This document shows, piece after piece, positions 27,887 through 63,108 of a stretch of DNA of 64,000 bases. The position numbers and the translations under genes were made by a program. Under the pieces are notes generated by a model, which was not told the origin of the DNA, did not search any database, and worked only from the letters and a program-made list of their open reading frames with translations. Origin of the DNA: Desulfobacteraceae bacterium (GTDB taxonomy: Bacteria > Desulfobacterota > Desulfobacteria > Desulfobacterales > Desulfosalsimonadaceae). Where the stretch lies: the NCBI GenBank assembly GCA_011389515.1, contig JAABUA010000010.1:1-64000 (forward strand). Reading direction: 5' to 3'. The number at the start of each line of letters is the position of its first letter. Within the stretch, counting starts at the first letter, position 1.

Positions 27887-27892
27887 GAACAT

Positions 27893-28018
27893 ACGAAAAA
27901 GCCAAACCAATTGTAAAATTGGGACGGAAAATCACGGATCTTCGCTGCGTCTGAGCTTGCTTATAATTCGATTAAGATAGCCGGATTGCCATTTCAATAG
28001 TGGCATTGCGGCTTTTTT
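27893..28018 (+). promoter_or_regulatory. GEMM-I c-di-GMP riboswitch with terminator, upstream of pilZ
   Basis: The conserved GCCAAACC is followed by a hairpin CCAATT-GTAA-AATTGG closed by a GNRA tetraloop, then GGACGGAAAATCACGGATCTT, a variable loop, AAGATAGCCGG, and an overlapping terminator (stem 27980-28012, then six T). In Vc2 numbering, position 20 is G, which favours c-di-GMP over cGAMP. Positions 21 and 46 are C and G instead of G and C, a compensatory pair change. The PilZ gene starts 38 bases later. Confidence 0.85.
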
Positions 28019-28055: not shown

Positions 28056-28625
28056 ATGGACAGCCAGCACAATCAACCCCGCTATAATGAGAAACGAGTG
28101 TGCCCCAGGGTGGAAACCGTAAATAAGGTCGGCTACATTCTGTTGGATAAGCACATGGAAAAAGTCGGGCATGGAAAGGGGAGGACGCTGAACCTGAGTC
28201 AAAAAGGGACGCTTCTGGAAACGCGAAACCCGACGTTTGGCTGTTTTGTTATTCTTGTGGCAACAGATTTGAAGGGAAAACAGCTACAGGTAAAAGGCCG
28301 TTTGGTCAATACCCGTCAATCCGATACGACCGGTTTTTATCTGACTGGGGTCCGATTTTCCGGATCCCGGGAGGAATATATAAATGCCATTGTTGCCTTT
28401 ATAAAAGTCTACCATAACCGCAAACAGCTTAATCAAAATAACCGGCTCTACTCAACGCCGGAAAAAGTATATGTAACTGCCGACAACACGTTCATCATTA
28501 CCTGTCCGCGATGCAAAAAATCAAAAGAACTGGATGGATCCCTGTTAAAGGGGCATATGAAAGTCAGGATCAAATGCCGTTGCGGAAACGTTTGGAAAAA
28601 CTACTTGATCAGGGAAGGTTCCTGA
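28056..28625 (+). CDS. PilZ-zinc ribbon protein under riboswitch control
   Basis: 189 residues. The N-terminal PilZ domain (about 8-120) has the arginine motif in NEKRVCPRVE and NLSQKG as the (D/N)xSxxG motif, so c-di-GMP binding is likely. The C-terminal 45 residues are a zinc ribbon (CPRC near 151, CRCG near 176) with the same KGHMKVRIKC core as the protein encoded at 25061. The gene begins 38 bases after a GEMM riboswitch terminator, so c-di-GMP appears to control both synthesis and activity. No membrane segment, so cytoplasmic. Target unknown. Confidence 0.85.
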   Translation: MDSQHNQPRYNEKRVCPRVETVNKVGYILLDKHMEKVGHGKGRTLNLSQKGTLLETRNPTFGCFVILVATDLKGKQLQVKGRLVNTRQSDTTGFYLTGVRFSGSREEYINAIVAFIKVYHNRKQLNQNNRLYSTPEKVYVTADNTFIITCPRCKKSKELDGSLLKGHMKVRIKCRCGNVWKNYLIREGS

Positions 28626-37956: not shown

Positions 37957-38058
37957 TTATGAAAAAGCCAAACTGATCGTGAGATCAGGACGGAACGTCA
38001 CGGGTCTTAACAAGATAGCCGGACTGCCATTGTAATAGCGGTAGTCCGGTTTTTTTTT
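37957..38058 (+). promoter_or_regulatory. GEMM-I c-di-GMP riboswitch with terminator, upstream of SGNH gene
   Basis: It has GCCAAAC, a hairpin CTGATC-GTGA-GATCAG with a GNRA loop, GGACGGAACGTCACGGGTCTT, AAGATAGCC, then a strong terminator (CCGGACTGCC / GGTAGTCCGG, 38019-38049) and nine T. It has the same G at Vc2 position 20 and the same C21-G46 pair as the copy at 27.9 kb. The next gene starts 240 bases downstream; I see nothing further in 38060-38298. Confidence 0.85.
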
Positions 38059-51152: not shown

Positions 51153-51242
51153 TAAAAATGGCGAACGTGAAACGGTTTCTCAGAGATCCGTATAAAGCAT
51201 CGTGCATTACTTGCCAGTCCAGAAAATAAAAGACCCATTTGG

Positions 51243-51278
51243 TTTTTGTAATCCCGGATGTGCAAGGCAATAAGGAAA
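51243..51278. repeat. R4 dispersed repeat, copy 1
   Basis: TTTTTGTAATCCCGGATGTG, then CAAGGCAATAAGGAAA, agrees with 56103-56138 at 32 of 36 positions. It supplies the AAGGAAA ribosome-binding site of the oxidoreductase that starts at 51284. Confidence 0.7.
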
Positions 51279-51283
51279 GGATT

Positions 51284-52393
51284 ATGGGTAAGCGACTCCT
51301 CCTGCTCGGCGGCGGCCATGCGCACATGGTCACCCTGGCCAATATTCATAAGCTGCAAAGTCAGGGGCATCAGGTCACAGTGGTACAGCCGGATGAATAC
51401 CACTACTATTCTGGTATGGGGCCGGGCATGCTAAGCAAAATTTATGCCCCGGAGGAAATCCGCTTTGCTACCAGGCGGACAGTAGAAAAGCAGGGGGCCG
51501 GATTTGTGCGGGCAAAAGCCACCGCGATTCTGCCCCAGAAGAAAAGGGTCCGTCTGGATAACGGCCAGGACTTGGAATATGATGTCTTGTCCTGCAACGT
51601 GGGCAGTGCTGTGCCTGCAGTCAAAGGGCAGGGAAAAAGTCTTTGTTTTCCCGTCAAGCCCATAGCCTCTTTGCTCCAGGTTCAGAAAAAAACTTTGCAA
51701 CTGCTCTCTCAAGGGCAGGTCCGCCTTGGGGTGATAGGGGGTGGGCCTGCCGCGCTGGAAGTTGCCGGCAATCTGCAGCGCCTGGTGCAGGATGCCGGAG
51801 GCAAAAAAGCGCAGGTTACCCTTTTTGCCGGTCGAAAATTTCTGGCCAATCTCAAGGAGCCGATCCGGAAACTGGCGAGAAAAAATTTTGTGCGTCGAGG
51901 AATCGAGATTGTGGAACCGGGGTATGTTGGTCAGCTGGGCCCGGATACGATTGAACTGGAAAACGGTGAGAACTATGAAAGCGATTTGACCCTGTTGGCC
52001 GTAGGGGTCATGCCTTCGCCACTTTTTGTTGATTCAGGGTTGCGTACCGGCCCTGACGGCGGACTGTTGGTCAATGAGTACCTGCAGCATCCGGATTATC
52101 CAGAGATCTTCGGAGGGGGAGATTGCATCTTCTTTAAAAACCAGCCTTTGGACAAGGTGGGGGTCTATGCCGTCCGCCAGAATCCCATCCTTTATCACAA
52201 CCTGCAGGCAAGCCTGAACAGGAACGAACTCAAATCTTTCCATCCCGGAGGGGATTATCTTTTGATCTATAACCTTGGGGATGGTACCGGCATCTTCAGC
52301 AAGGGGAGCCTGACATTTGGGGGTCGGCCCGCTTTCTGGATCAAGGACTGGATAGACCGCAGATTTATGAAGCGTTTTCAAGTTATGGACTGA
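51284..52393 (+). CDS. FAD-dependent pyridine nucleotide oxidoreductase (NDH-2/SelD-N-like)
   Basis: About 369 residues from the ATG at 51284, whose AAGGAAA site lies in repeat R4; the open frame from 51239 is repeat-derived. The N-terminal FAD motif is LLLGGGHAHM, the NAD(P)H motif is LGVIGGGPAALEVAG (about 145-160) and the C-terminal FAD contact is FGGGDCIFF. HYYSGMGPGML near 40-50 resembles the FAD domain fused to selenide, water dikinase in some bacteria. It likely oxidises NAD(P)H with a quinone or other small acceptor; whether it is a true NDH-2 cannot be told. No membrane anchor. Monocistronic. Confidence 0.8.
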   Translation: MGKRLLLLGGGHAHMVTLANIHKLQSQGHQVTVVQPDEYHYYSGMGPGMLSKIYAPEEIRFATRRTVEKQGAGFVRAKATAILPQKKRVRLDNGQDLEYDVLSCNVGSAVPAVKGQGKSLCFPVKPIASLLQVQKKTLQLLSQGQVRLGVIGGGPAALEVAGNLQRLVQDAGGKKAQVTLFAGRKFLANLKEPIRKLARKNFVRRGIEIVEPGYVGQLGPDTIELENGENYESDLTLLAVGVMPSPLFVDSGLRTGPDGGLLVNEYLQHPDYPEIFGGGDCIFFKNQPLDKVGVYAVRQNPILYHNLQASLNRNELKSFHPGGDYLLIYNLGDGTGIFSKGSLTFGGRPAFWIKDWIDRRFMKRFQVMD

Positions 52394-52416: not shown

Positions 52417-52596
52417 AAAAGCAGCCTCAAGGTTCCGGTCATTTTTTTCGAAACCATCCGGGCCTATGCCGAAAAGCAGGGCAAGGCCATCGATGAGGCG
52501 GAGACCTGGTTTCTGCTGATCCATTACTGGAGCCAGTTGCATGTTGCATTTTTGACGGCCGCGCTCTTTTTTTTTAAATCTCAGTTGATTATTTGA
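52417..52596 (+). pseudogene. Possible gene remnant
   Basis: The frame 52417-52596 reads as plausible protein (VIFFETIRAYAEKQGKAID, then an ETWFLLIHYWSQLHVAFL segment) but opens directly after a stop and has no ATG, GTG or TTG before the sequence begins. I take it as the 3' end of a lost gene. The family is not recognised. Confidence 0.35.
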
Positions 52597-52621
52597 CTTT
52601 GAGTTCCGGCCGGTTTATTCT
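52593..52621 (+). promoter_or_regulatory. Sigma-70 promoter of the kaiC leader
   Basis: TTGACT (52593-52598), a 17-base spacer and TATTCT (52616-52621), placed relative to the GEMM-like element just as the promoters at 27859 and 37923 are. Confidence 0.6.
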
Positions 52622-52629
52622 TATTGAAA

Positions 52630-52716
52630 ACAAAGTAAAGCCAAGCCAATTGTGAGATTGGGCCGGAAAGTCAAAGGTCTTTTCGAAACTGGTTTTCCAG
52701 GTTCATACTGCTGACT
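52630..52716 (+). promoter_or_regulatory. Degenerate GEMM-like element upstream of kaiC
   Basis: AAAGCCAAGCC is followed by a hairpin CCAATT-GTGA-GATTGG with a GNRA loop and GGGCCGGAAAGTCAAAGGTC, so the first half matches the two GEMM riboswitches of this window. The second half (TCTTTTCGAAACTGG) departs from the consensus AAGATAGCCGG. A different ending, with a CTGGTTTTCCAG palindrome and an AAGTCA/TGACTTTTT pairing, could form a terminator. It may be a diverged or decayed riboswitch. It ends about 115 bases before kaiC. Confidence 0.5.
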
Positions 52717-52831
52717 TTTTCTCGCCCCCATTCTCGATTTAAGATATTAATTTTATATATCTTTTTTTATAGAAGCTAACCCCCGAGGCTTCTTTGTCCC
52801 ATCATTACTGCAAATGGATACAGGCTGACCA

Positions 52832-54364
52832 ATGAACCAGCATACAGGCGCCAACCATTTTATCCCCATAGATCAGATTCAATCCATTCCCAAAATAGTC
52901 ACCCGCATTCACGGACTGGACGAAATCCTGGAAGGTGGATTGCCCGAAGGCCATATCACGGCTGTTGTCGGCGGTCCCGGTGCCGGCAAGACCGTAATAG
53001 GCCTTGAATTTGCCTATCGAAGCGCACTGGCTGGAGAACCTTGTATTTTCGTATCTTTTGAAGAACGGGCGTCCGACCTGCGCACAAATGCCCTGGCCAT
53101 GGGCTGGGATCTCAAGCGCCTCGAAGATACCGGCAAACTGTTTCTTATCGATTCCCGGCCCGGACCGGATGTGATCCGCGACGGCGAATATAATCTCAAT
53201 GGCCTGCTGGCGATACTGGAGGGAACGTCCGAAGCTATGAACGCCCGCAGGCTGGTCATTGATTCCATGGACGTGATACTGCGAATCTTCAAGGATTCCA
53301 CCCGACAAGAGGACCAGCTTTACCAGTTGACGGACTGGTTGAATAAAAAAGCCATCTCAGCGATACTTACCGCCCGGATGATTTCCGAGACCAATACATT
53401 TACCAGCCATCGGTTCCTGGAGTTTGCGGCCGACTGCCTGATCAAGATGGACGCCCGGGTAGACGGGCAGATTGCCACCCGTCGACTTCGAATCGCGAAA
53501 TACCGGGGGTCGAGCTTCGGAAGCAACGAATACCCTTATATTATCAGCCAGGGCGGCCTTTTCCTGCTGCCCATCAGCACGATGGGGCTGAAACACGCCC
53601 CCCTGGGTAAACCGATCTCAAGCGGCAGACCGGAAATAGACGAGGTTCTGGGCGGCGGTTATCGACGTGCATCCAGTATACTTGTCACGGGAGGCGCAGG
53701 CACCGGAAAAACCACCCTGCTATCGACCTTTGTCGAGGCGGCCTGCAAGCGCGGGGAAAAAGTGCTGTTCGTCAACTTCGAGGAATCCGCCGAAGCCATG
53801 ATGAGCGCGATGTCAAGCATCAACATTGACCTGGACCCTTTCTTCAGGGACGGAACGATGCAAATGATCACAGCCATGCCTGAGTCCATGGGGGCCGAAG
53901 AACATTTTTTCCGGGTCTTTCAGGCAATTGAACAATTTGTACCGGATCATGTTTTGGTGGACGCGGTCTCGGCGACACTGCGAATAGGCACGCCGCAGGC
54001 AGCTTTCGAATATATGATGCGGCTGGTCAACACATGCAAGGAACTCGGCATCACGGCCCTGATGAGCAATCAGGGGAGCGGCAGTGCGATAAATATTGAA
54101 AAAAGCAGCAACCTGGGCATCTCTTCGCTCGTGGACGCCCTGCTCCTGCTGCGCTACGTGCCCAAAGGCGCCGAAATCGGCCGCCTGCTTGTCGTTGTCA
54201 AATCGCGTGGCATGGCCCACTCGAATCAATATCATGAATTTAAGATTACCGATCAGGGAATTGTTCTTCTGGAGCCGTTTGGAGAGGGCGGGCATCCAGG
54301 ATCGGATCTGAAGGGGGAACAGGGAACTCCTGCAATTCATCCGCGAAACTGGGAGAGTAGATAA
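52832..54364 (+). CDS. kaiC: KaiC-like dual RecA ATPase
   Basis: 510 residues, close to the 519 of cyanobacterial KaiC. Two RecA-type domains: CI with Walker A GGPGAGKT near 47-54 and the catalytic Glu pair in SFEERASDLR; CII with GGAGTGKT near 286-293 and NFEESAEAM. Ser431 and Ser432 (GISSLVD) align with the autophosphorylated Ser431/Thr432 of Synechococcus KaiC, and Ser426 with Thr426. It is the first gene of a coupled kaiC-kaiB-kinase operon with overlapping stops and starts. KaiA is absent from the window, as is usual outside cyanobacteria. Output may be stress or timing; a true clock is not implied. Confidence 0.88.
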   Translation: MNQHTGANHFIPIDQIQSIPKIVTRIHGLDEILEGGLPEGHITAVVGGPGAGKTVIGLEFAYRSALAGEPCIFVSFEERASDLRTNALAMGWDLKRLEDTGKLFLIDSRPGPDVIRDGEYNLNGLLAILEGTSEAMNARRLVIDSMDVILRIFKDSTRQEDQLYQLTDWLNKKAISAILTARMISETNTFTSHRFLEFAADCLIKMDARVDGQIATRRLRIAKYRGSSFGSNEYPYIISQGGLFLLPISTMGLKHAPLGKPISSGRPEIDEVLGGGYRRASSILVTGGAGTGKTTLLSTFVEAACKRGEKVLFVNFEESAEAMMSAMSSINIDLDPFFRDGTMQMITAMPESMGAEEHFFRVFQAIEQFVPDHVLVDAVSATLRIGTPQAAFEYMMRLVNTCKELGITALMSNQGSGSAINIEKSSNLGISSLVDALLLLRYVPKGAEIGRLLVVVKSRGMAHSNQYHEFKITDQGIVLLEPFGEGGHPGSDLKGEQGTPAIHPRNWESR

Positions 54365-54690
54365 TGAAGTCTCTCGACAAAAACAATTCCGCTCAAAAGG
54401 GGGTTTCCTGGAGCCAGCCCCCGCAGCTTATTCTCTTCGTGGTGGGCAATGAACCCAATTCCCTGCAGGCCCGCCAAAACATGAAACATCTATGCGAGAT
54501 AATTGACGGGCCTGTTGAATACGAGGTAATCGATGTGCTCGACAATTTTCAAACCGCCCTGGAATACAATATCCTGGCAACCCCCGCACTCGTGCGGGTA
54601 TCCCCCGAGCCCCAATTAACCATACTGGGCAACATGAGCGATACAAAACGGATCCTGACGTTGTTGGATTACAAGGAGCCCGCAAGATGA
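54364..54690 (+). CDS. kaiB: KaiB-like thioredoxin-fold protein
   Basis: 108 residues starting at the ATG that overlaps the kaiC stop (TAATG). The KaiB pattern is clear: LILFVVGNEPNSLQARQNM, VIDVLDNFQTALEYNILATPALV and a GNMSDTKRILTLLD end. KaiB binds the CI ring of KaiC and, in cyanobacteria, switches folds to form the night complex. A Pro-rich 20-residue N-terminal extension precedes the fold. The ATG of the kinase gene overlaps its stop by four bases. Confidence 0.9.
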   Translation: MKSLDKNNSAQKGVSWSQPPQLILFVVGNEPNSLQARQNMKHLCEIIDGPVEYEVIDVLDNFQTALEYNILATPALVRVSPEPQLTILGNMSDTKRILTLLDYKEPAR

Positions 54691-56003
54691 ATGAACCCAG
54701 GCCATCCTATGAGGAGCTCGAAGCTCGCCTGGCCCGGGCAGAAGATTTGATTGCGGCACTCAAGGGCTCTGAAGTGGACGCGGTCCTCGGGCTGGAGGAT
54801 ATTGCCTTTGTCCGGGAACGCAGCGCCGAAGAGCGCGCACGGGCATTTCAAGCTGAACTCGAACGCCAGGTGGCTGAACGCACAGAATTGGCCGAGGCCA
54901 GGGCGATGCAGCTTCAGACCATGGCAGGGGAACTGCTCGAGGCGGAAGAGCGTGAGCGAAGGAGAATCGCCCAGATTCTTCACGATGACCTGCAACAGCA
55001 TTTGGCCAGTGCCAAACTGCAGTTGCAATCGGTTGACCAATATGCGTCCAATGACCCCATCTTAATTAAGATTGATGAATTGCTGAAGGATTGCCTTGCC
55101 AAAGTACGCAGCCTGTCCCATGAACTGAGCCCCCCGGTGCTGAATCACTCAGGGCTATATGCCGCCCTGGAATGGCTGGCCCAACATCTCAAAGAACGGT
55201 TCGGATTTCTCGTGCAGCTTGAAATTGACACGGAGGCTTGGTTTGAGAACGAAACGTTTAAGATATTCCTTTTCCGGGCAGTGCAGGAACTATTATTAAA
55301 CGCGGTTACGCATGCTGGTGTAAGAAATGCGCGGGTCGGCCTTTCAACCTCAGATGACCGTCTCGTTGTAGTAGTAAGCGATCAGGGAAGCGGATTTAAC
55401 CCCGACCCGAAGTCTCTTTCTGCAAAAAACGGCCTTGGACTGCTAAGCCTGTGGGAACGCACCCAGTTTGTGGGTGGTGAGCTGACAATCGAAAGTGCGC
55501 CCGGCCATGGCAGCTGTTTCACGCTGGCGGTCCCTTTGCCAAAAACCAGAGAAAATTCACCAGGCGACCTTAGGCTCGGGAAAGAGCTCAGGCCAACGAA
55601 CAGGACGATTGATGCTTCTGCAGATGAAAACATTCGGGTTCTGATTGTAGACGATCACGAGGTGATGCGTCAGGCATTGAGTGCGATGCTCCGCAATCAC
55701 CCGAAAATCCATGTCGCAGGACAGGCGTCCAATGGATGGGAATCCGTTGAGAAAGTACGAGATTTAAGTCCCGATATCGTCTTGATGGATGCCTCTATGC
55801 CCGGGATGAGCGGGGCGGAAGCCACGCGGATGATCAAGACCGAATGGCCCGAAGTGATCGTAATCGGGTTGTCAATGTATGATGATAATCAGATCGTGCA
55901 GAAAATGCAACAAGCGGGAGTTGAAGAATTCATAAACAAGTCGGCCTCTTCAAATGAACTGCTGCAGGCCATTTACAAGACAGTCCGTTGCGAGCAGAAG
56001 TGA
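54687..56003 (+). CDS. HisKA_3 histidine kinase with C-terminal receiver, coupled to kaiBC
   Basis: 438 residues. An N-terminal coiled coil (about 5-90) holds an SEVDAVLG sensor-like motif but no membrane helix. A HisKA_3 (NarX-type) segment follows, with His in AQILHDDLQQHLA near 98, then HATPase_c (about 190-285; DQGSGFN, NGLGLLSLWER), a linker, and a NarL-type receiver (about 315-430) with acceptor Asp in DIVLMDASMPG. There is no DNA-binding domain. Its ATG overlaps the kaiB stop. By position it takes the role of SasA, but it lacks the KaiB-like sensor domain of SasA, so the contact with KaiC is unknown. Confidence 0.88.
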   Translation: MNEPRPSYEELEARLARAEDLIAALKGSEVDAVLGLEDIAFVRERSAEERARAFQAELERQVAERTELAEARAMQLQTMAGELLEAEERERRRIAQILHDDLQQHLASAKLQLQSVDQYASNDPILIKIDELLKDCLAKVRSLSHELSPPVLNHSGLYAALEWLAQHLKERFGFLVQLEIDTEAWFENETFKIFLFRAVQELLLNAVTHAGVRNARVGLSTSDDRLVVVVSDQGSGFNPDPKSLSAKNGLGLLSLWERTQFVGGELTIESAPGHGSCFTLAVPLPKTRENSPGDLRLGKELRPTNRTIDASADENIRVLIVDDHEVMRQALSAMLRNHPKIHVAGQASNGWESVEKVRDLSPDIVLMDASMPGMSGAEATRMIKTEWPEVIVIGLSMYDDNQIVQKMQQAGVEEFINKSASSNELLQAIYKTVRCEQK

Positions 56004-56055
56004 AATTCTTTGCCAAGCTGCTATCCATGAAACCTTATCACGCGCAATCCATGCG

Positions 56056-56505
56056 TTATAGACTGGACTTGGCAGACTCCTGGAGAAGTTCAGCTGGGGG
56101 CGTTTTTGAAATCCCAGAGGTACAAGGCAATAAGGAAAAAACGGTAACATCGTATCTGCTGAAAATGGTATCGCGGGTGATGATGCACAGTTTTTCCAGG
56201 TGGGCCTGGGCGATAATCATTCTGTCAAAGGGGTCGCGATGGTGCATTGGAAGCCCGCCTGCTGCATACGCATGATCCGTGGTGATGGATAAAAGCTCAA
56301 ATCCCTGATCTTTGATAACGGGATAAAAATCCGCTGAAATTTCCAGTTTTCCAAGCGCCTGCTTGATCCGCATTTCCCAGATCACGGCAGCACTCACAAC
56401 AATAAGGTTTCCCGGATCAGCGATAGCATTTCGTTCAGCATCGGAGAGATAAGGACTATCATCCAGCCACCACAGCAGCACATGGGTGTCGAGAAACAGA
56501 TTCAT
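56056..56505 (-). CDS. vapC: PIN-domain toxin (VapC-like)
   Basis: 149 residues. A PIN ribonuclease fold with the acidic site: Asp6 in FLDTHVLLWW, Glu in VIWEMRIKQ near 44, Asp residues in RDPFDRMIIAQA near 90-94. It likely cleaves RNA and is neutralised by the antitoxin encoded just upstream; the two genes overlap by four bases. The last 25-28 residues (after FSRYDVTVFS) fall on dispersed repeat R4 and sequence beyond it, so the toxin tail is longer than the usual length of about 125 residues. Confidence 0.85.
   Translation of the reverse strand: MNLFLDTHVLLWWLDDSPYLSDAERNAIADPGNLIVVSAAVIWEMRIKQALGKLEISADFYPVIKDQGFELLSITTDHAYAAGGLPMHHRDPFDRMIIAQAHLEKLCIITRDTIFSRYDVTVFSLLPCTSGISKTPPAELLQESAKSSL
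56103..56138. repeat. R4 dispersed repeat, copy 2
   Basis: TTTTTGAAATCCCAGAGGTA, then CAAGGCAATAAGGAAA, agrees with 51243-51278 at 32 of 36 positions. It lies in the 3' coding part of the PIN toxin. Confidence 0.7.
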
Positions 56506-56741
56506 TTGTCCGTCATGCCGAATGCTTCGGCGATATCATCCGGAAGTACATCGAAATCATTCGCAATCTTTATTTTTCCCTTTAAGGCGCCGGGCCGTCG
56601 CGGCTGTCGGTTATTCTCATACTTGATGATGCGGGCTACCGGCTTTCCAGCCTTGCCGATAATCACTTCTTCTCCGGCCATGACTTTTTCAATCAGCGCG
56701 GATAACTGAGCCTTTGCTTCTGAGATATTGGCAATATGCAT
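56502..56741 (-). CDS. Phd/YefM-type antitoxin
   Basis: About 79 residues from the ATG at 56741, with GGGAGGTG upstream; the frame stays open to 56840. The N-terminal NISEAKAQLSALIEKVMAGEEVII is the typical Phd/YefM DNA-binding segment, followed by GKAGKPVARIIKY and a flexible C-terminal part that would wrap the toxin. It overlaps vapC by four bases and should repress its own operon with the toxin. Confidence 0.88.
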   Translation of the reverse strand: MHIANISEAKAQLSALIEKVMAGEEVIIGKAGKPVARIIKYENNRQPRRPGALKGKIKIANDFDVLPDDIAEAFGMTDK

Positions 56742-56767
56742 GTTTACACCTCCCGTATACAAACATA

Positions 56768-56795
56768 GTCTGACCAGACCAGACCATTTTGTCAA
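56768..56795 (-). promoter_or_regulatory. Operator/promoter of the antitoxin-toxin operon
   Basis: On the minus strand TTGACA (56795-56790) is followed by direct GGTCT repeats and the inverted repeat GTCTG-N2-CAGAC (56779-56768), 27 bases before the ATG. The repeats are a plausible autoregulatory operator. The -10 box is not clear. Confidence 0.45.
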
Positions 56796-56961
56796 GCGAT
56801 ATTTGATGACCTTCCCCCGTTGTTTGTAAATCTTACACAAGAAATAGTTTGTCGTCTCCTTTCCAAAACACCATGCATGTTTATTTTAAGAAATGATACG
56901 TTTGCATTTTTATTGCTGATCATTGCGCAATGCTGGATGCCACGGAGCAGGGAGAAAGAAT

Positions 56962-59900
56962 ATGCATGGAAGCGATCCAGACACCAAAAAAAAAGAAAAA
57001 CCGGACCATCAGGTCCAGCTGATTTCTCCAGAGCTGCTGATGGACGCCCCCATTGGTATTTATACGACCACGCCCGAAGGCCGTTTTTTATCCGCCAATC
57101 GGACCCTGGCCAGAATGCTGGGATATGATACGCCCAACGAGTTGATTGAATCCATAACGGATTTGAGCAAGCAGGCTTATGTCAATCCGGATGACAGGCA
57201 AAATGCAAAAACCCTTCTGGAAACCTACGGAGAAGTAAGCGATTATGAATGTCAATGGCGTCGCCGCAACGGAAAGGGGTTATGGATATCTCTCAATGCG
57301 AGGGCTATAAAGGATGAAAGCGGAAACACTTTATACTATCAGGGTTTTGCATCCAACATTGCAAAACGGAAACATAATGAAGAAGATCTCCGGAAAATCG
57401 AATGGATGCTTTCCGGTGATCAATCAGTTGATTCTGTTCAAGAGATTTCGCCAGAAACGAATGACCCGCCATACGGTGATTTGACAAATCTCAATACCAG
57501 CCGTTTGATACTTGATGCGGTTGGGAAAGAAACCCTCAGAAACATTGTCAATGACTATCTTGAAATGCTCGGCACATCCGCTGCGGTTTATGAAAAAAAC
57601 GGCGATTATGCCCTGGGTATATTTTCTTCCTCCTGGTGCCGTTTTATGGACCAGTCATCCCGTCGCTTGTGCAATACGGATGACGACGGCAAAGCCCTTG
57701 CCTCCGGAAAATGGCTTTGCCATGAATCCTGCTGGAATATTTCCAAACAATGTATTGAAACAGGCAATCCGGTAGATGCCGAGTGCTCCGGAGGGCTGCG
57801 ACTCTATACGGTCCCTGTTCGGGCAGGCGGCGAAGTAATCGGCGCCCTTAGCTTCGGATATGGCAACCCGCCGACAGATTTCGCCACGCTTGACCGTCTG
57901 GCTTCGCAATACGCAGTTTCCAAAAAAGCGCTGCGGCAAAACGCAAGGAGCTATGAAACCCGCCCGCCGTTTATCATTGATCTTGCCAAGCGGAGAATCC
58001 GGTCCGCGTCCTATTTAATCGGCGAAATAGTGGAGCGAAAGCAGGCGGAAGCCGCTTTGCGGGAAAAGACCCAATTGCTTCAAAGCATAACGGACAACAT
58101 GTACGACCTTGTTGCATTGACGGACATGCAGGGAAACTTTACCTATGTGGGCCGATCCCATGAAATCCTTGGCTACGATCTTGATTCTCTGATTGGTAAG
58201 AATGTATTGGACTTTGTCCATCCAGACGATTATCCGGATGTATTATCTGCTTTTGGTGAATTGGTTGCAAAACAGGATGATGATCGAAAAACTGAATACA
58301 GATACAGAGATGCAGACGGAACATACCGCTGGTTTGAAACGGTGGGCCGGATCATCCGTGACGAAAACGGCGATCCAAAGGAAATGATATTCAGCACCAG
58401 GGATTTCACAGATCGCAAATTGTCCGAGGATCTGCTCCGGGATCGGGAGGCCTTTACGTGGACGATCTTGGATAATCTCCCTATAGGGCTATCCATTAAT
58501 ACAGTGGATGATTCTGTTGATTTTACCTACATGAATGACAATTTTCCCAGGGTTTACAGAACTACGCGACAAGCACTCGAAGGTGCCGATTCTTTTTGGG
58601 ATGTCATCTATGAAGATCCCGTTTACCGTGAGCAAATCAAGCAACGGATACTCGCGGATTGTGCCAGCGGCAATCCGGAACGCATGCAATGGGACGATAT
58701 TTCTTTTACCAGAAATGGGCAGACCTACTTCATTTGCGCTCGAAACATCCCCTTTCCGGATGAAAAATATATGATATCAACCGTTTGGGATGTCACCGAG
58801 AGCAAACAGGCTGAACATAAACTGCGCGAAAGTGAAGAAAAATATCGATTCATGACAGAACAGATGAATGATGTGATCTGGACCTCGGATCTGGATATGC
58901 GGGTTACTTACATCAGCCCATCTGATGAGCGAATCCTGGGTTTCACCCGGGAAGAACGAATAGGACATACCCTCGCCGACATGTTGACGCATGCCTCACA
59001 AGAAAAAGCCATGGAGGCACTGTCGAAGGAATATGCCCTTGAAGAAACGGGTTCGACTGGCCTCAGTCGCAGCGTAACCATCGAGTTGGAATACCGACAT
59101 AAGGACGGCTCAACCCGGTGGCTTGAGACCCTTGCGGCAGGAATTCGCAATGATGAAGGTCGCTTGATAGGCACGCACGGCGTATCACGCGATATTTCCG
59201 AACGCAAGCAGACTGAAAAAGCGCGGTGGGAAAGTGAGGAGAAATCCCGCCATCTGGAGGAGCAGTTATACCATGCCCAGAAAATGGAATCCATGGGCCG
59301 ACTGGCTGGAGGGGTTGCCCATGATTTCAATAACATGCTCACCATTATCAACGGGTATGCAGAAATGATGGCAGATGTCCTGCCATCTTCCGACCCCATG
59401 TATGACAGCGTTCAGGAAATCCAGGATGCCGGTAAACGCTCCGCGGTTATCGTGCGCAAGCTGCTGGCGTTTGCAAGGAAGCAAAACATCGCCCCTGTCC
59501 CCTTGAACCTGAACGACAGCGTATCCGGCATGCTCAAAATGCTTCAGCGGCTTATCGGAGAGAACATCGACCTGCTCTGGAAGCCCTGCCAGGATGCCTG
59601 GCTGACAAAAATGGACAACGCCCAGGTGGACCAGATCCTTGTCAATCTTGTGGTCAATGCCCACGATGCCATCGCCGATATCGGCAAAATAACCATTGAG
59701 ACCGAAACCATCGAGTTTGACGAACAATACTGCGCAGATCATGCAGGATTTTTCCCTGGGCAGTTTGTCATGCTTGCGGTAAGCGACAACGGCTGCGGCA
59801 TGGACAAGCATGTGTTGGACAACCTGTTCGAGCCGTTTTTTACGACCAAGGAAATTGGCAAGGGCACCGGCCTGGGCATGCCGACGGTCTATGGAATCGT

Positions 59901-60399
59901 GAAGCAAAATAATGGCTTTATAAACGTTTACAGCGAACCGGGGCAAGGCACCACGATCCGGATCTATTTTCCGCGGTATTTAAGCGATGCCGATATTCCG
60001 GATAGAAAAAAAGAAAAAACGCCGGCAAAGGGGCGCGGAGAAACGATCCTTGTGCTGGAAGATGAAACCGTCGTTCTGAATCTCACCCGCATCATGCTTG
60101 AGAGGCTTGAGTATAAAGTCATTATGGCAAACAGCCCGAGCGAGGCCATGGAATTGGCCAAAACGCACGACGGTAATATCGACCTCCTGCTGACCGATGT
60201 CGTCATGCCGGAAATGAACGGCCGGGAATTTGCCGATCAGCTCAACGGCCTTTTTCCGGAGATCAAGGTACTGTTCATGTCCGGTTACACGGCGAATGTG
60301 ATCGCCCACCATACGGTTTTGGATGAAGGGATGCACTTTATTGAAAAGCCGTTTTCCATTAACAGGCTGGCGGCCAAGGTAAGAGCGGTGCTGGAGTAA
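56962..60399 (+). CDS. Hybrid sensor kinase: PAS, PocR, three PAS, HisKA, HATPase, REC
   Basis: About 1145 residues from the ATG at 56962 (GGGAGAAAG upstream). PAS (about 25-137), a PocR-type sensory domain (about 175-330; ILDAVGKETLRNIVNDY, CHESCWNISKQCIETG, SFGYGNPPTD), then PAS near 360-480, 490-610 and 620-750, HisKA with His in GGVAHDFNNML near 775, HATPase (DNGCGMD, PFFTTKEIG) and a receiver with Asp in LLLTDVVMPEMNG. There is no membrane segment, so it is a cytosolic sensor. PocR domains are tied to small hydrocarbon-derivative or metal-cluster sensing. The C-terminal 400 residues are very similar to the kinase at 60793, a paralogue. Confidence 0.9.
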   Translation: MHGSDPDTKKKEKPDHQVQLISPELLMDAPIGIYTTTPEGRFLSANRTLARMLGYDTPNELIESITDLSKQAYVNPDDRQNAKTLLETYGEVSDYECQWRRRNGKGLWISLNARAIKDESGNTLYYQGFASNIAKRKHNEEDLRKIEWMLSGDQSVDSVQEISPETNDPPYGDLTNLNTSRLILDAVGKETLRNIVNDYLEMLGTSAAVYEKNGDYALGIFSSSWCRFMDQSSRRLCNTDDDGKALASGKWLCHESCWNISKQCIETGNPVDAECSGGLRLYTVPVRAGGEVIGALSFGYGNPPTDFATLDRLASQYAVSKKALRQNARSYETRPPFIIDLAKRRIRSASYLIGEIVERKQAEAALREKTQLLQSITDNMYDLVALTDMQGNFTYVGRSHEILGYDLDSLIGKNVLDFVHPDDYPDVLSAFGELVAKQDDDRKTEYRYRDADGTYRWFETVGRIIRDENGDPKEMIFSTRDFTDRKLSEDLLRDREAFTWTILDNLPIGLSINTVDDSVDFTYMNDNFPRVYRTTRQALEGADSFWDVIYEDPVYREQIKQRILADCASGNPERMQWDDISFTRNGQTYFICARNIPFPDEKYMISTVWDVTESKQAEHKLRESEEKYRFMTEQMNDVIWTSDLDMRVTYISPSDERILGFTREERIGHTLADMLTHASQEKAMEALSKEYALEETGSTGLSRSVTIELEYRHKDGSTRWLETLAAGIRNDEGRLIGTHGVSRDISERKQTEKARWESEEKSRHLEEQLYHAQKMESMGRLAGGVAHDFNNMLTIINGYAEMMADVLPSSDPMYDSVQEIQDAGKRSAVIVRKLLAFARKQNIAPVPLNLNDSVSGMLKMLQRLIGENIDLLWKPCQDAWLTKMDNAQVDQILVNLVVNAHDAIADIGKITIETETIEFDEQYCADHAGFFPGQFVMLAVSDNGCGMDKHVLDNLFEPFFTTKEIGKGTGLGMPTVYGIVKQNNGFINVYSEPGQGTTIRIYFPRYLSDADIPDRKKEKTPAKGRGETILVLEDETVVLNLTRIMLERLEYKVIMANSPSEAMELAKTHDGNIDLLLTDVVMPEMNGREFADQLNGLFPEIKVLFMSGYTANVIAHHTVLDEGMHFIEKPFSINRLAAKVRAVLE

Positions 60400-60472: not shown

Positions 60473-60673
60473 ATGATCGATGAAAAATTATATCGGAATT
60501 ATTTTCAGGCACTTCTCGCCGGTCGGCGGGCCCAGTGTCGTGATATCGCCCAAACGCTTATAGACAAGCAGATTGCGATTAAAATGCTTTATTCCGACCT
60601 GTTTCAGCGCAGTATGTATGAAATCGGTGAGCTTTGGGAGAACAATCGCATCACCGTTGCCAACGAAATCTAA
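60473..60673 (+). pseudogene. Truncated B12-binding domain protein
   Basis: The 66 residues match the helical cap (B12-binding_2, MtbC1/MerR-type) of cobalamin-binding regulators: NYFQALLAGRRAQCRDIAQ and LFQRSMYEIGELWENNRITVANE. A stop codon then comes where intact homologues continue with a His-Leu-Ala-Thr segment and the Rossmann B12 domain. The following 120 bases show no match in any frame I can read. Likely a deletion remnant between two duplicated kinases. Confidence 0.7.
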
Positions 60674-60792
60674 ATCCCAGATATATGCTGGAGTGTGGGG
60701 CAGCCTGTATTTGCCAATTCCCCGCCTTGCTGTTATTTTATAAAAAACAGGGACGGATTGTTGGAAGGGTCCAAAAAATTTACAGGAAAAAA

Positions 60793-63108
60793 ATGACAGA
60801 TTCGAAAATATGCGAAGATGAAGCCCCCGAATACGCCGAGGGCATCATGAACGCGGTTCGTGAACCCTTAATCATTCTGGATAATGATTTACGGGTTATT
60901 TTTGCCAGTCGTTCCTTTTATAACGCCTTTACGGTAAAGCCTGAAGAGACCGTGGGTCAGCTTATCTATGACCTGGGCAACAAACAGTGGGATATCCCCC
61001 AGCTGCGACAACTGCTCGAAACCCTCCTCCCCCGGCAAACATCCCTTGAGGACTACGAGGTTGAACACGAATTTGCCGACATCGGCAGCCGCACCATGCT
61101 TCTCAATGCCTTGGAAATACATAGAAAATCCGGAAAAGAACGGCATATCCTCCTTGCCATAGAAGACATCACCGAGCGCAAACGGCAGGAAAATTTGTTA
61201 TCAGAATCGGAAGAACGCTACCGGCGGCTTTTTGAGACCGCAGATGACGGAATGGTGCTTCTGGAAAAAGCCGAAGGAAAGATAACCCATGCCAATCCTG
61301 CCATCGCTGAGATGTTGGGTTGTAATCATGATGCGCTTATTGGAAAAGGGGTAAAAGATATCGGTTTTCCCGGAGATATCGGGACCATTCAGGAAATCAC
61401 CCAGGCACTGGAAAGAAACGGCATACTTAATTACAAAGATGCGCTGGTACAGGCAAAGGCCGGGCAGGGCATTTATACCGATATTTATATGGTCGATAAG
61501 GCAAAGTTGGTTCAATGCAATGTTCGCGATATCACCGATCGCAAACAGATGGAAGAGGGGTTGCGAGAGCGCGAAGAGCTGTATCGGTTACTGGTTGAAG
61601 CGTCAAACGATCTTGTCTGGATCTACGATTTACCGAGCATGAAATATACGTATTGTTCCAAATCGGTGGAAAGGATTCTTGGCTATTCTCAAGAAGAGGT
61701 AAAGGGCTTTACGCTGGAAGATGTCTTTCCGCAAGAGACAAAAAACAAGGTTATTGCCGCCTTTGACAAGGCTCTCAAAGGAGAAACCGATTCAGACCAG
61801 ATTTTAATGGAAGCAGAACATCTCCACAAAGACGGCCACCTGGTTTGGATGGAAATCAGTGCGGTAATGCGCAGGGATAACCAGGGGCAGCCGATAGCAT
61901 TTACCGGTGTCTCCCGGGACATCACCGAGCGCAATCAGTCCGAAGCGGAGCACAAAAAGCTTCAATCCCAACTGCTCCAGTCCCAGAAACTGGAATCCGT
62001 CGGCCGCCTGGCCGGCGGTGTGGCCCATGATTTCAATAACATGCTTACCATCATCAACGGTTATGCAGAAATGATGACCGATGTGCTTTCTCCTATCGAA
62101 CCGCTGTATGATGATGCGTTGCAAATCCATGAAGCGGGAAAAAGGTCAGCAGCGATGGTTCGCAAACTGCTGGCTTTTGCCAGAAAGCAGACTTTCTTCC
62201 CGGAAGTAATGAATTTAAACGACAACGTGTCCAGTATGCTCAAGATGCTTCATCAGCTCATCGGGGAAAATATCGACCTCCTCTGGCAGCCCGGTAAAAA
62301 TCTCTGGCTGATAAAGATGGATTTTTCCCAGCTTGACCAGATACTTGCCAATCTGGTGGTCAATGCCCGTGATGCCATTGCAGGCATCGGCAAACTAACC
62401 ATAGAGACGCAAAACGTTGAATTTGACGAGCAATACTGCGACAGTCATGTGGGCTTTGTGCCGGGGCAGTTCGTAATGCTGGCGGTAAGCGATACCGGCT
62501 GCGGCATGGAAAAGAACGTCTTTGACCATCTGTTTGAGCCGTTTTTCACGACCAAAGAGATCGGTAAGGGCACCGGGCTGGGCCTTCCGACGGTTTACGG
62601 CATTGTCAAGCAGAACAACGGCTTTATCAATGTGTACAGTGAGCCGGGACAAGGCACAACCTTCAGGATATACCTGCCGCCCCATGCCGGGGAGGCAGTA
62701 ACATCGGGCCAAGAAAGCCGGGAGCAATATCCCCTTGGCAACGGCGAGACGATACTGGTAGTGGAAGACGAGATTCGGGTTTTGAATGTAGCCAAAATCA
62801 TGCTTGAAAAACTGGGATACAAGGTGCTGGCGGTAAATTCAGTCCATGAAGCGTTGGCACTTATCGAATCCCGCGGCGGCGCAATCGATCTGCTGTTAAC
62901 CGATGTGATCATGCCGGAGATGAACGGCCGCGATTTTACCGCTCAGGTCAACACGCTTTACCCGGACATTAAAGCACTTTTCATGTCCGGATATACCTCC
63001 GATGTCATCGTTCGTCACGGGATTTTGGAAGAAGGCGTCCGTTATATCCAAAAACCCTTTTCCATTAGAGATCTGGCGATCAAAGTGCGAAAGGCGGTTG
63101 AGGAGTAA
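60793..63108 (+). CDS. Hybrid sensor kinase: three PAS, HisKA, HATPase, REC
   Basis: About 771 residues from the ATG at 60793, with AGGAAAA upstream; an in-frame start at 60634 reads through the broken B12 region and is rejected. Three PAS domains (about 15-135, 140-255, 258-380), HisKA with His in GGVAHDFNNML near 413, HATPase with DTGCGMEK and PFFTTKEIGKG, and a receiver (about 650-770) with Asp in LLLTDVIMPEMNG and KPFS. It has no membrane helix. It is a paralogue of the kinase at 56962 but lacks its PocR domain. One base separates its stop from the next start, so it is co-translated with the GGDEF gene. Confidence 0.9.
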   Translation: MTDSKICEDEAPEYAEGIMNAVREPLIILDNDLRVIFASRSFYNAFTVKPEETVGQLIYDLGNKQWDIPQLRQLLETLLPRQTSLEDYEVEHEFADIGSRTMLLNALEIHRKSGKERHILLAIEDITERKRQENLLSESEERYRRLFETADDGMVLLEKAEGKITHANPAIAEMLGCNHDALIGKGVKDIGFPGDIGTIQEITQALERNGILNYKDALVQAKAGQGIYTDIYMVDKAKLVQCNVRDITDRKQMEEGLREREELYRLLVEASNDLVWIYDLPSMKYTYCSKSVERILGYSQEEVKGFTLEDVFPQETKNKVIAAFDKALKGETDSDQILMEAEHLHKDGHLVWMEISAVMRRDNQGQPIAFTGVSRDITERNQSEAEHKKLQSQLLQSQKLESVGRLAGGVAHDFNNMLTIINGYAEMMTDVLSPIEPLYDDALQIHEAGKRSAAMVRKLLAFARKQTFFPEVMNLNDNVSSMLKMLHQLIGENIDLLWQPGKNLWLIKMDFSQLDQILANLVVNARDAIAGIGKLTIETQNVEFDEQYCDSHVGFVPGQFVMLAVSDTGCGMEKNVFDHLFEPFFTTKEIGKGTGLGLPTVYGIVKQNNGFINVYSEPGQGTTFRIYLPPHAGEAVTSGQESREQYPLGNGETILVVEDEIRVLNVAKIMLEKLGYKVLAVNSVHEALALIESRGGAIDLLLTDVIMPEMNGRDFTAQVNTLYPDIKALFMSGYTSDVIVRHGILEEGVRYIQKPFSIRDLAIKVRKAVEE

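Follow-up and report, generated by a model that had tools for sequence, protein, structure and literature searches.

A KaiC–KaiB–kinase operon behind the probable remnant of a c-di-GMP-I riboswitch in a Desulfobacteraceae genome

The operon and its relatives

The stretch of DNA analyzed here (the window) covers 64,000 nucleotides of a Desulfobacteraceae genome of 3.24 Mb in 156 contigs, from a relative of sulfate reducers that presumably comes from a soda lake. Three genes on its plus strand form a compact operon: kaiC (52832–54364), kaiB (54364–54690), and a gene for a hybrid kinase with HisKA_3, HATPase_c, and receiver domains (54687–56003). The first two genes share one base (TAATG at 54362–54366) and the last two share four (ATGA at 54687–54690). 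An operon of this composition, joined by overlapping stop and start codons, had been proposed from the sequence in an original prediction, and its genes, domains, and overlaps are all confirmed. Domain scans and profile searches identify the three products, and for KaiC an alignment and motifs add to these.

The KaiC protein is of the double-domain, KaiC2-like kind. A Pfam scan matches PF06745 in two stretches, and the two ATPase domains each carry a Walker A motif (residues 47 and 287) and a catalytic glutamate pair (residues 77–78 and 317–318). The phosphorylation sites are two serines, S431 and S432. The protein exceeds the cut-off of profile NF006799 (469 bits against 408) and scores far under the strict KaiC model TIGR02655. 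KaiB has the KaiB thioredoxin-like domain (PF07689, 62 bits against a cut-off of 27) and does not reach the cut-offs of two stricter models, TIGR02654 and NF006798. The kinase contains neither a KaiB-like domain nor a PAS domain in a Pfam scan, which bears out the prediction of an output kinase that lacks the SasA-type domain. The operon itself contains no kaiA gene.

The closest characterized counterpart is found with the KaiBC system of Rhodobacter sphaeroides, a KaiA-less hourglass that likewise has kaiC, kaiB, and a histidine kinase gene in one operon (PMC10076222). The window KaiC aligns over 478 residues with chain 8db3, the R. sphaeroides KaiC minus its coil (PMC10076222), and the double serine of the R. 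sphaeroides KaiC2 type is shared, with GISSLVD in the window aligned to GLSSLMD. At 510 residues compared with 568, the window protein is the shorter one; it has no C-terminal coiled-coil extension, and the alignment stops at residue 496. The kinase differs from that of the R. sphaeroides system in having a receiver and no KaiB-like domain. Cyanobacterial SasA is also a kinase that adjoins the Kai genes, but the window kinase lacks its N-terminal KaiB-like sensor domain.

Other families of the order and phylum share the gene order kaiC–kaiB–kinase, which is common in the Desulfobacterota and also occurs in Gallionella and Planctomycetales. The KaiC proteins at these loci are about 40–53% identical to that of the window, and several of the loci show conservation of the first 50–60 kinase residues. 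Several of these kinases carry an insertion after the N-terminal part, unlike the window kinase. Earlier work described both a histidine kinase encoded within a kaiBC operon and, outside the cyanobacteria, SasA homologs that lack a KaiB-like domain (PMC5520375), and neither the operon type nor a kinase without that domain is new.

The same genome holds a second kai locus (G000:C68:88745-90154) with one kaiC beside two kaiB genes, a layout found in several other genomes. Downstream of the operon in the window, the minus strand carries two small genes (56056–56840) that resemble, by eye only, a PIN-domain toxin and a Phd-type antitoxin. They are followed by genes for two large PAS hybrid kinases (56923–60399 and 60634–63108) and a GGDEF protein that runs from 63779 to the window end.

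The leader RNA and its intact counterparts

The genome that holds the window has six intact c-di-GMP-I-GGC RNAs (RF03167; GEMM clan CL00126) and four weak ones; among these 10, the kaiC leader scores lowest by the lineage model described below. Two of the intact RNAs lie in the window itself, away from kaiC, at 27892–27994 and 37958–38032 at the Rfam gathering level. The former stands before the gene for a PilZ-domain protein (28056–28622), PilZ being a c-di-GMP receptor family; the latter precedes an open reading frame of at least 411 amino acids with no Pfam match. Together with the 13 GGDEF domains encoded in the genome, the PilZ gene behind one of the switches fits c-di-GMP as the ligand. 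In one relative (G027:C121:729-1016), three c-di-GMP-I aptamers are found in tandem.

Intact RNAs of the family provided the reference for judging the kaiC leader. An alignment of 35 copies supports the three helices, with 98.6% of cells paired and 12 of 18 pairs showing changes on both sides, a level that 0 shuffles reach; as the structure was known beforehand and the copies were found with Rfam, this support confirms the model and does not discover it. A covariance model built from this alignment (R1) gives intact copies 68–91 bits, and although the 35 training copies match it by construction, intact copies outside the training set score 64–90 bits, except one at 55.9. In 30 of the 35 copies, a strong pairing is possible between the 3′ strand of the aptamer helix P3 and a strand up to 70 bases downstream, and most of these terminator helices are followed by a T run; when the downstream sequence is shuffled, 9% of the shuffles reach the helix score. 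With a terminator that overlaps the P3 3′ strand, the unbound RNA would terminate and the bound RNA would read through, so the switches are probably turned on by the ligand.

The earlier proposal of a GEMM-like element before kaiC holds in part. At the Rfam gathering level no GEMM RNA is present there: In a relaxed search, the leader reaches 31.4 bits against RF03168 (cut-off 65.9) and 27.1 bits against RF03167 (cut-off 59). With R1, the leader nevertheless scores 40–41 bits, with an E value of about 1e-9 over 220 kb, and it is homologous to c-di-GMP-I RNAs. Matches of the leader to miRNA, snoRNA, and similar Rfam families were set aside as sub-threshold noise.

The anatomy of the leader shows which half survives. 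A promoter-like sequence, TTGACT-17-TATTCT (52593–52621, plus strand), had been predicted and stands where the genome's intact riboswitches have their promoters, though it is a weak match when taken alone (0.8 expected by chance). Downstream, the 5′ half of a GGC-type c-di-GMP-I aptamer remains at 52631–52685 on the same strand, comprising J1/2, P2 with a GUGA loop, and the start of P3. Read side by side with the intact copies, the leader shares the stretch AAAGCCAARCCAATTGTGAGATTGGG(A/C)CGGAAAGTCA at an equal spacing from the promoter. The P2 hairpin and its GNRA loop, which follow AAAG(C)CAAACC, are perfect, and the G before P2 is retained. This G and the C after P3 are the presumed ligand-contacting positions, probably corresponding to G20 and C92 of Vc2. 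Of 10 positions in the 5′ half that are invariant in the 35 intact copies, two have changed (A15 to G and C44 to A). The promoter placement, J1/2, P2 with its loop, and the P3 start are thus homologous to those of the six intact copies in the genome.

The 3′ half is a different matter. The stretch at 52686–52740 (plus strand) stands where an intact copy would have the 3′ strand of P3, the C presumed to pair with the ligand, and the terminator, and all seven of the positions invariant in the 35 intact copies are lost from it. The 3′ strand GATAGCCGGACTGCC of the intact copies is missing. The P3 strands CACGG and AGCCGG are not kept, with CAAAGG in place of the former and no AGCCGG strand downstream. 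A pairing scan finds no terminator helix above shuffles in this leader or in that of the sister described below; a simple terminator scan also finds nothing in either, which carries little weight given that it misses the terminator of an intact copy. The predicted fold of the window RNA is no better than that of shuffled sequences (z = −0.58), a weak test in that the intact copy at 27892 likewise lies at shuffle level (z = −0.52). Judged by sequence, the kaiC leader is a real relative of the c-di-GMP-I RNAs, yet not an intact riboswitch.

Two more 5′-only remnants of the riboswitch were found at G000:C64:38193-38285 (L007) and G000:C114:2604-2673 (L010). The three copies could be taken for a distinct RNA class consisting of the 5′ half only, a candidate that was rejected: In L007 the sequence past the break reads as gene interior, which suggests deletion remnants.

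The sister copy and the spread of the element

By kaiC, the closest relative with a name is SLPT01, a Desulfobacteraceae metagenome-assembled genome (MAG) from the "CSSed" sediment data set, presumably from a soda lake. Its kaiC start (in SLPT01000082.1) is 86% identical in protein to that of the window. A stretch corresponding to 52541–56034 on the plus strand of the window, with promoter, leader, kaiC, kaiB, and kinase, is shared with two contigs of this MAG: SLPT01000082.1 aligns from 52541, and SLPT01000150.1 covers the remaining operon up to 56034. The two contigs overlap at 91.8% identity, indicating that the MAG holds two alleles, and the leader is visible for one only. Sequence upstream of 52541 is not common to the window and the sister. 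It is thus unlikely that the riboswitch belonged to the site of the upstream gene and not to the operon, because promoter, leader, and operon are shared as one stretch and the upstream sequence is not.

The sister leader has the promoter TTGACA-17-CATTAT and keeps both aptamer halves, with 63.6 bits by R1 and 44.4 bits by Rfam (cut-off 59), the latter in a match of 105 bases. It is damaged by mismatches in P2 and a change of one invariant G, and it has no terminator helix above chance, but the aptamer core is nearly complete. From its sequence, it is possible that the sister copy still functions.

Comparison of the two leaders places the change in the 3′ half. In the 5′ half, 45 of 55 positions are identical, compared with 104 of 141 in the flanks (p = 0.27), while in the middle and 3′ half only 22 of 55 are identical against the same flanks (p = 2e-5); as the segments were defined after viewing the alignment, both p values serve as description only. 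In kaiC, the two share 86% identity at fourfold-degenerate sites. The figures for the leader would fit a 3′ part that was replaced in one of the two lineages, and because the strand is canonical in the sister, the window lineage is the one indicated. A search of the genus DNA found no donor of the replaced stretch. With the sister MAG as the one ortholog with a readable leader, constraint on the remaining 5′ half is not demonstrable, this half being no more conserved than the flanks.

A survey of kaiC leaders in related genomes, as had been suggested, uncovered the more complete element at the corresponding site of the sister and no GEMM element outside the genus. None was found near other kaiC homologs in about 35 genomes (relatives, Gallionella, Planctomycetales, order, and phylum), including the leaders of the loci with the same gene order, although at a few loci the contig begins shortly before kaiC and little of the leader is visible. 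As far as seen, a GEMM element before kaiC is confined to this genus. The operon is carried by two of six genus genomes, several of which are incomplete. In genome G003, the gene that stands upstream in the window (51239–52393) is followed by different sequence, and the contig ends about 50 bases later.

A probable, lapsed link between c-di-GMP and a timer

The reading that accounts best for these observations, and one held with good confidence, is that the operon once stood behind a c-di-GMP-I riboswitch that has since eroded to leave the promoter, with the Kai proteins acting like those of other KaiA-less KaiBC systems. The ancestral mRNA would have begun with the riboswitch, and binding of c-di-GMP would have allowed read-through past the terminator. 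In the lineage of the window, unrelated sequence would have taken the place of the terminator and the aptamer's 3′ half. An accessory KaiC–KaiB–kinase set would then be driven by the remaining promoter, through a leader some 200 bases long that retains the P2 hairpin. With those parts gone, transcription of kaiC should no longer depend on c-di-GMP. By analogy with the R. sphaeroides system, KaiC most likely autophosphorylates on its two serines and hydrolyzes ATP; as in KaiBC systems elsewhere, KaiB would bind KaiC, with the kinase probably carrying the output.

The alternative that survives best, though it is itself rather unlikely, extends the decay from the leader to the whole operon, which would be a passing accessory element under relaxed selection or fast divergence. 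The patchy distribution in the genus, combined with low constraint on kaiB (dN/dS of 0.86 against the sister, from few sites), means that the whole operon may be drifting, and the unshared upstream flank is consistent with such a history. The values of 0.30–0.36 for kaiC and 0.41 for the kinase can be read as loose constraint, but they lie below 1, and all three frames are open with the catalytic motifs of KaiC intact.

It is distinctly unlikely that in the genus the operon is, or until recently was, under the control of a c-di-GMP riboswitch, with a sister copy that may still bind c-di-GMP. Less probable again is that the window leader remains a functional c-di-GMP switch whose P3 has diverged and whose expression platform is of a different type, such as translation or Rho control. 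The intact P2 and GNRA loop, the retained promoter, the GGDEF complement of the genome, and the nearly full-length sister copy would suit such a switch, and a P3-like helix, AAAGUCA/UGACUUU, can still form. This pairing probably reflects chance, and the loss of every invariant 3′ position, the two changes in the 5′ half, the absence of a terminator helix, and the fast change of the 3′ half all argue against function. Within 52631–52723, the UGACUUU partner stands just before a T-rich stretch, and a similar pairing is found in L007.

Changes at the ligand-pairing base of the Vibrio Vc2 aptamer alter its specificity, and in an unfiltered model alignment the window has UUU instead of GCC after GACU, which puts U in the position of the base expected to pair with the second G of c-di-GMP. 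A switch of ligand, perhaps to an adenine-containing dinucleotide, is very improbable, however, as the alignment is loose there, the surrounding P3 core is also gone, and no relative keeps the UUU form of this single copy. A chance or convergent resemblance to GEMM, which could be argued from scores under all Rfam cut-offs, is effectively eliminated by the R1 match, the equally distant promoter, and the far better sister match in the same place.

The eroded riboswitch remains the preferred account, and the original prediction was mostly right on anatomy and mostly wrong on regulation for the window genome. It had suggested that expression of the operon might be set by c-di-GMP or some related dinucleotide. 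In this genome such control of the timer is unlikely: The terminator and the 3′ strand of P3 have been lost, as apparently has the presumed ligand-pairing C, and constraint on the 5′ half could not be demonstrated. For the window itself, the result removes an attractive but unsupported claim. A link between the c-di-GMP signal and the timer probably existed in the ancestor and was most likely lost here, an example of riboswitch death by replacement of one half, with the promoter left in place.

The inputs of KaiBC systems outside the cyanobacteria are poorly known. Recent work on Synechococcus showed that c-di-GMP shifts the clock through factors not yet known (PMC13001216). A c-di-GMP riboswitch before a kai operon, even a lapsed one, would be the first direct genetic link of this kind found in the literature searched, and what retains interest is that the two were probably joined in an ancestor of these bacteria. 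If the sister copy still binds c-di-GMP, it would tie a second messenger to a clock-like module directly through RNA.
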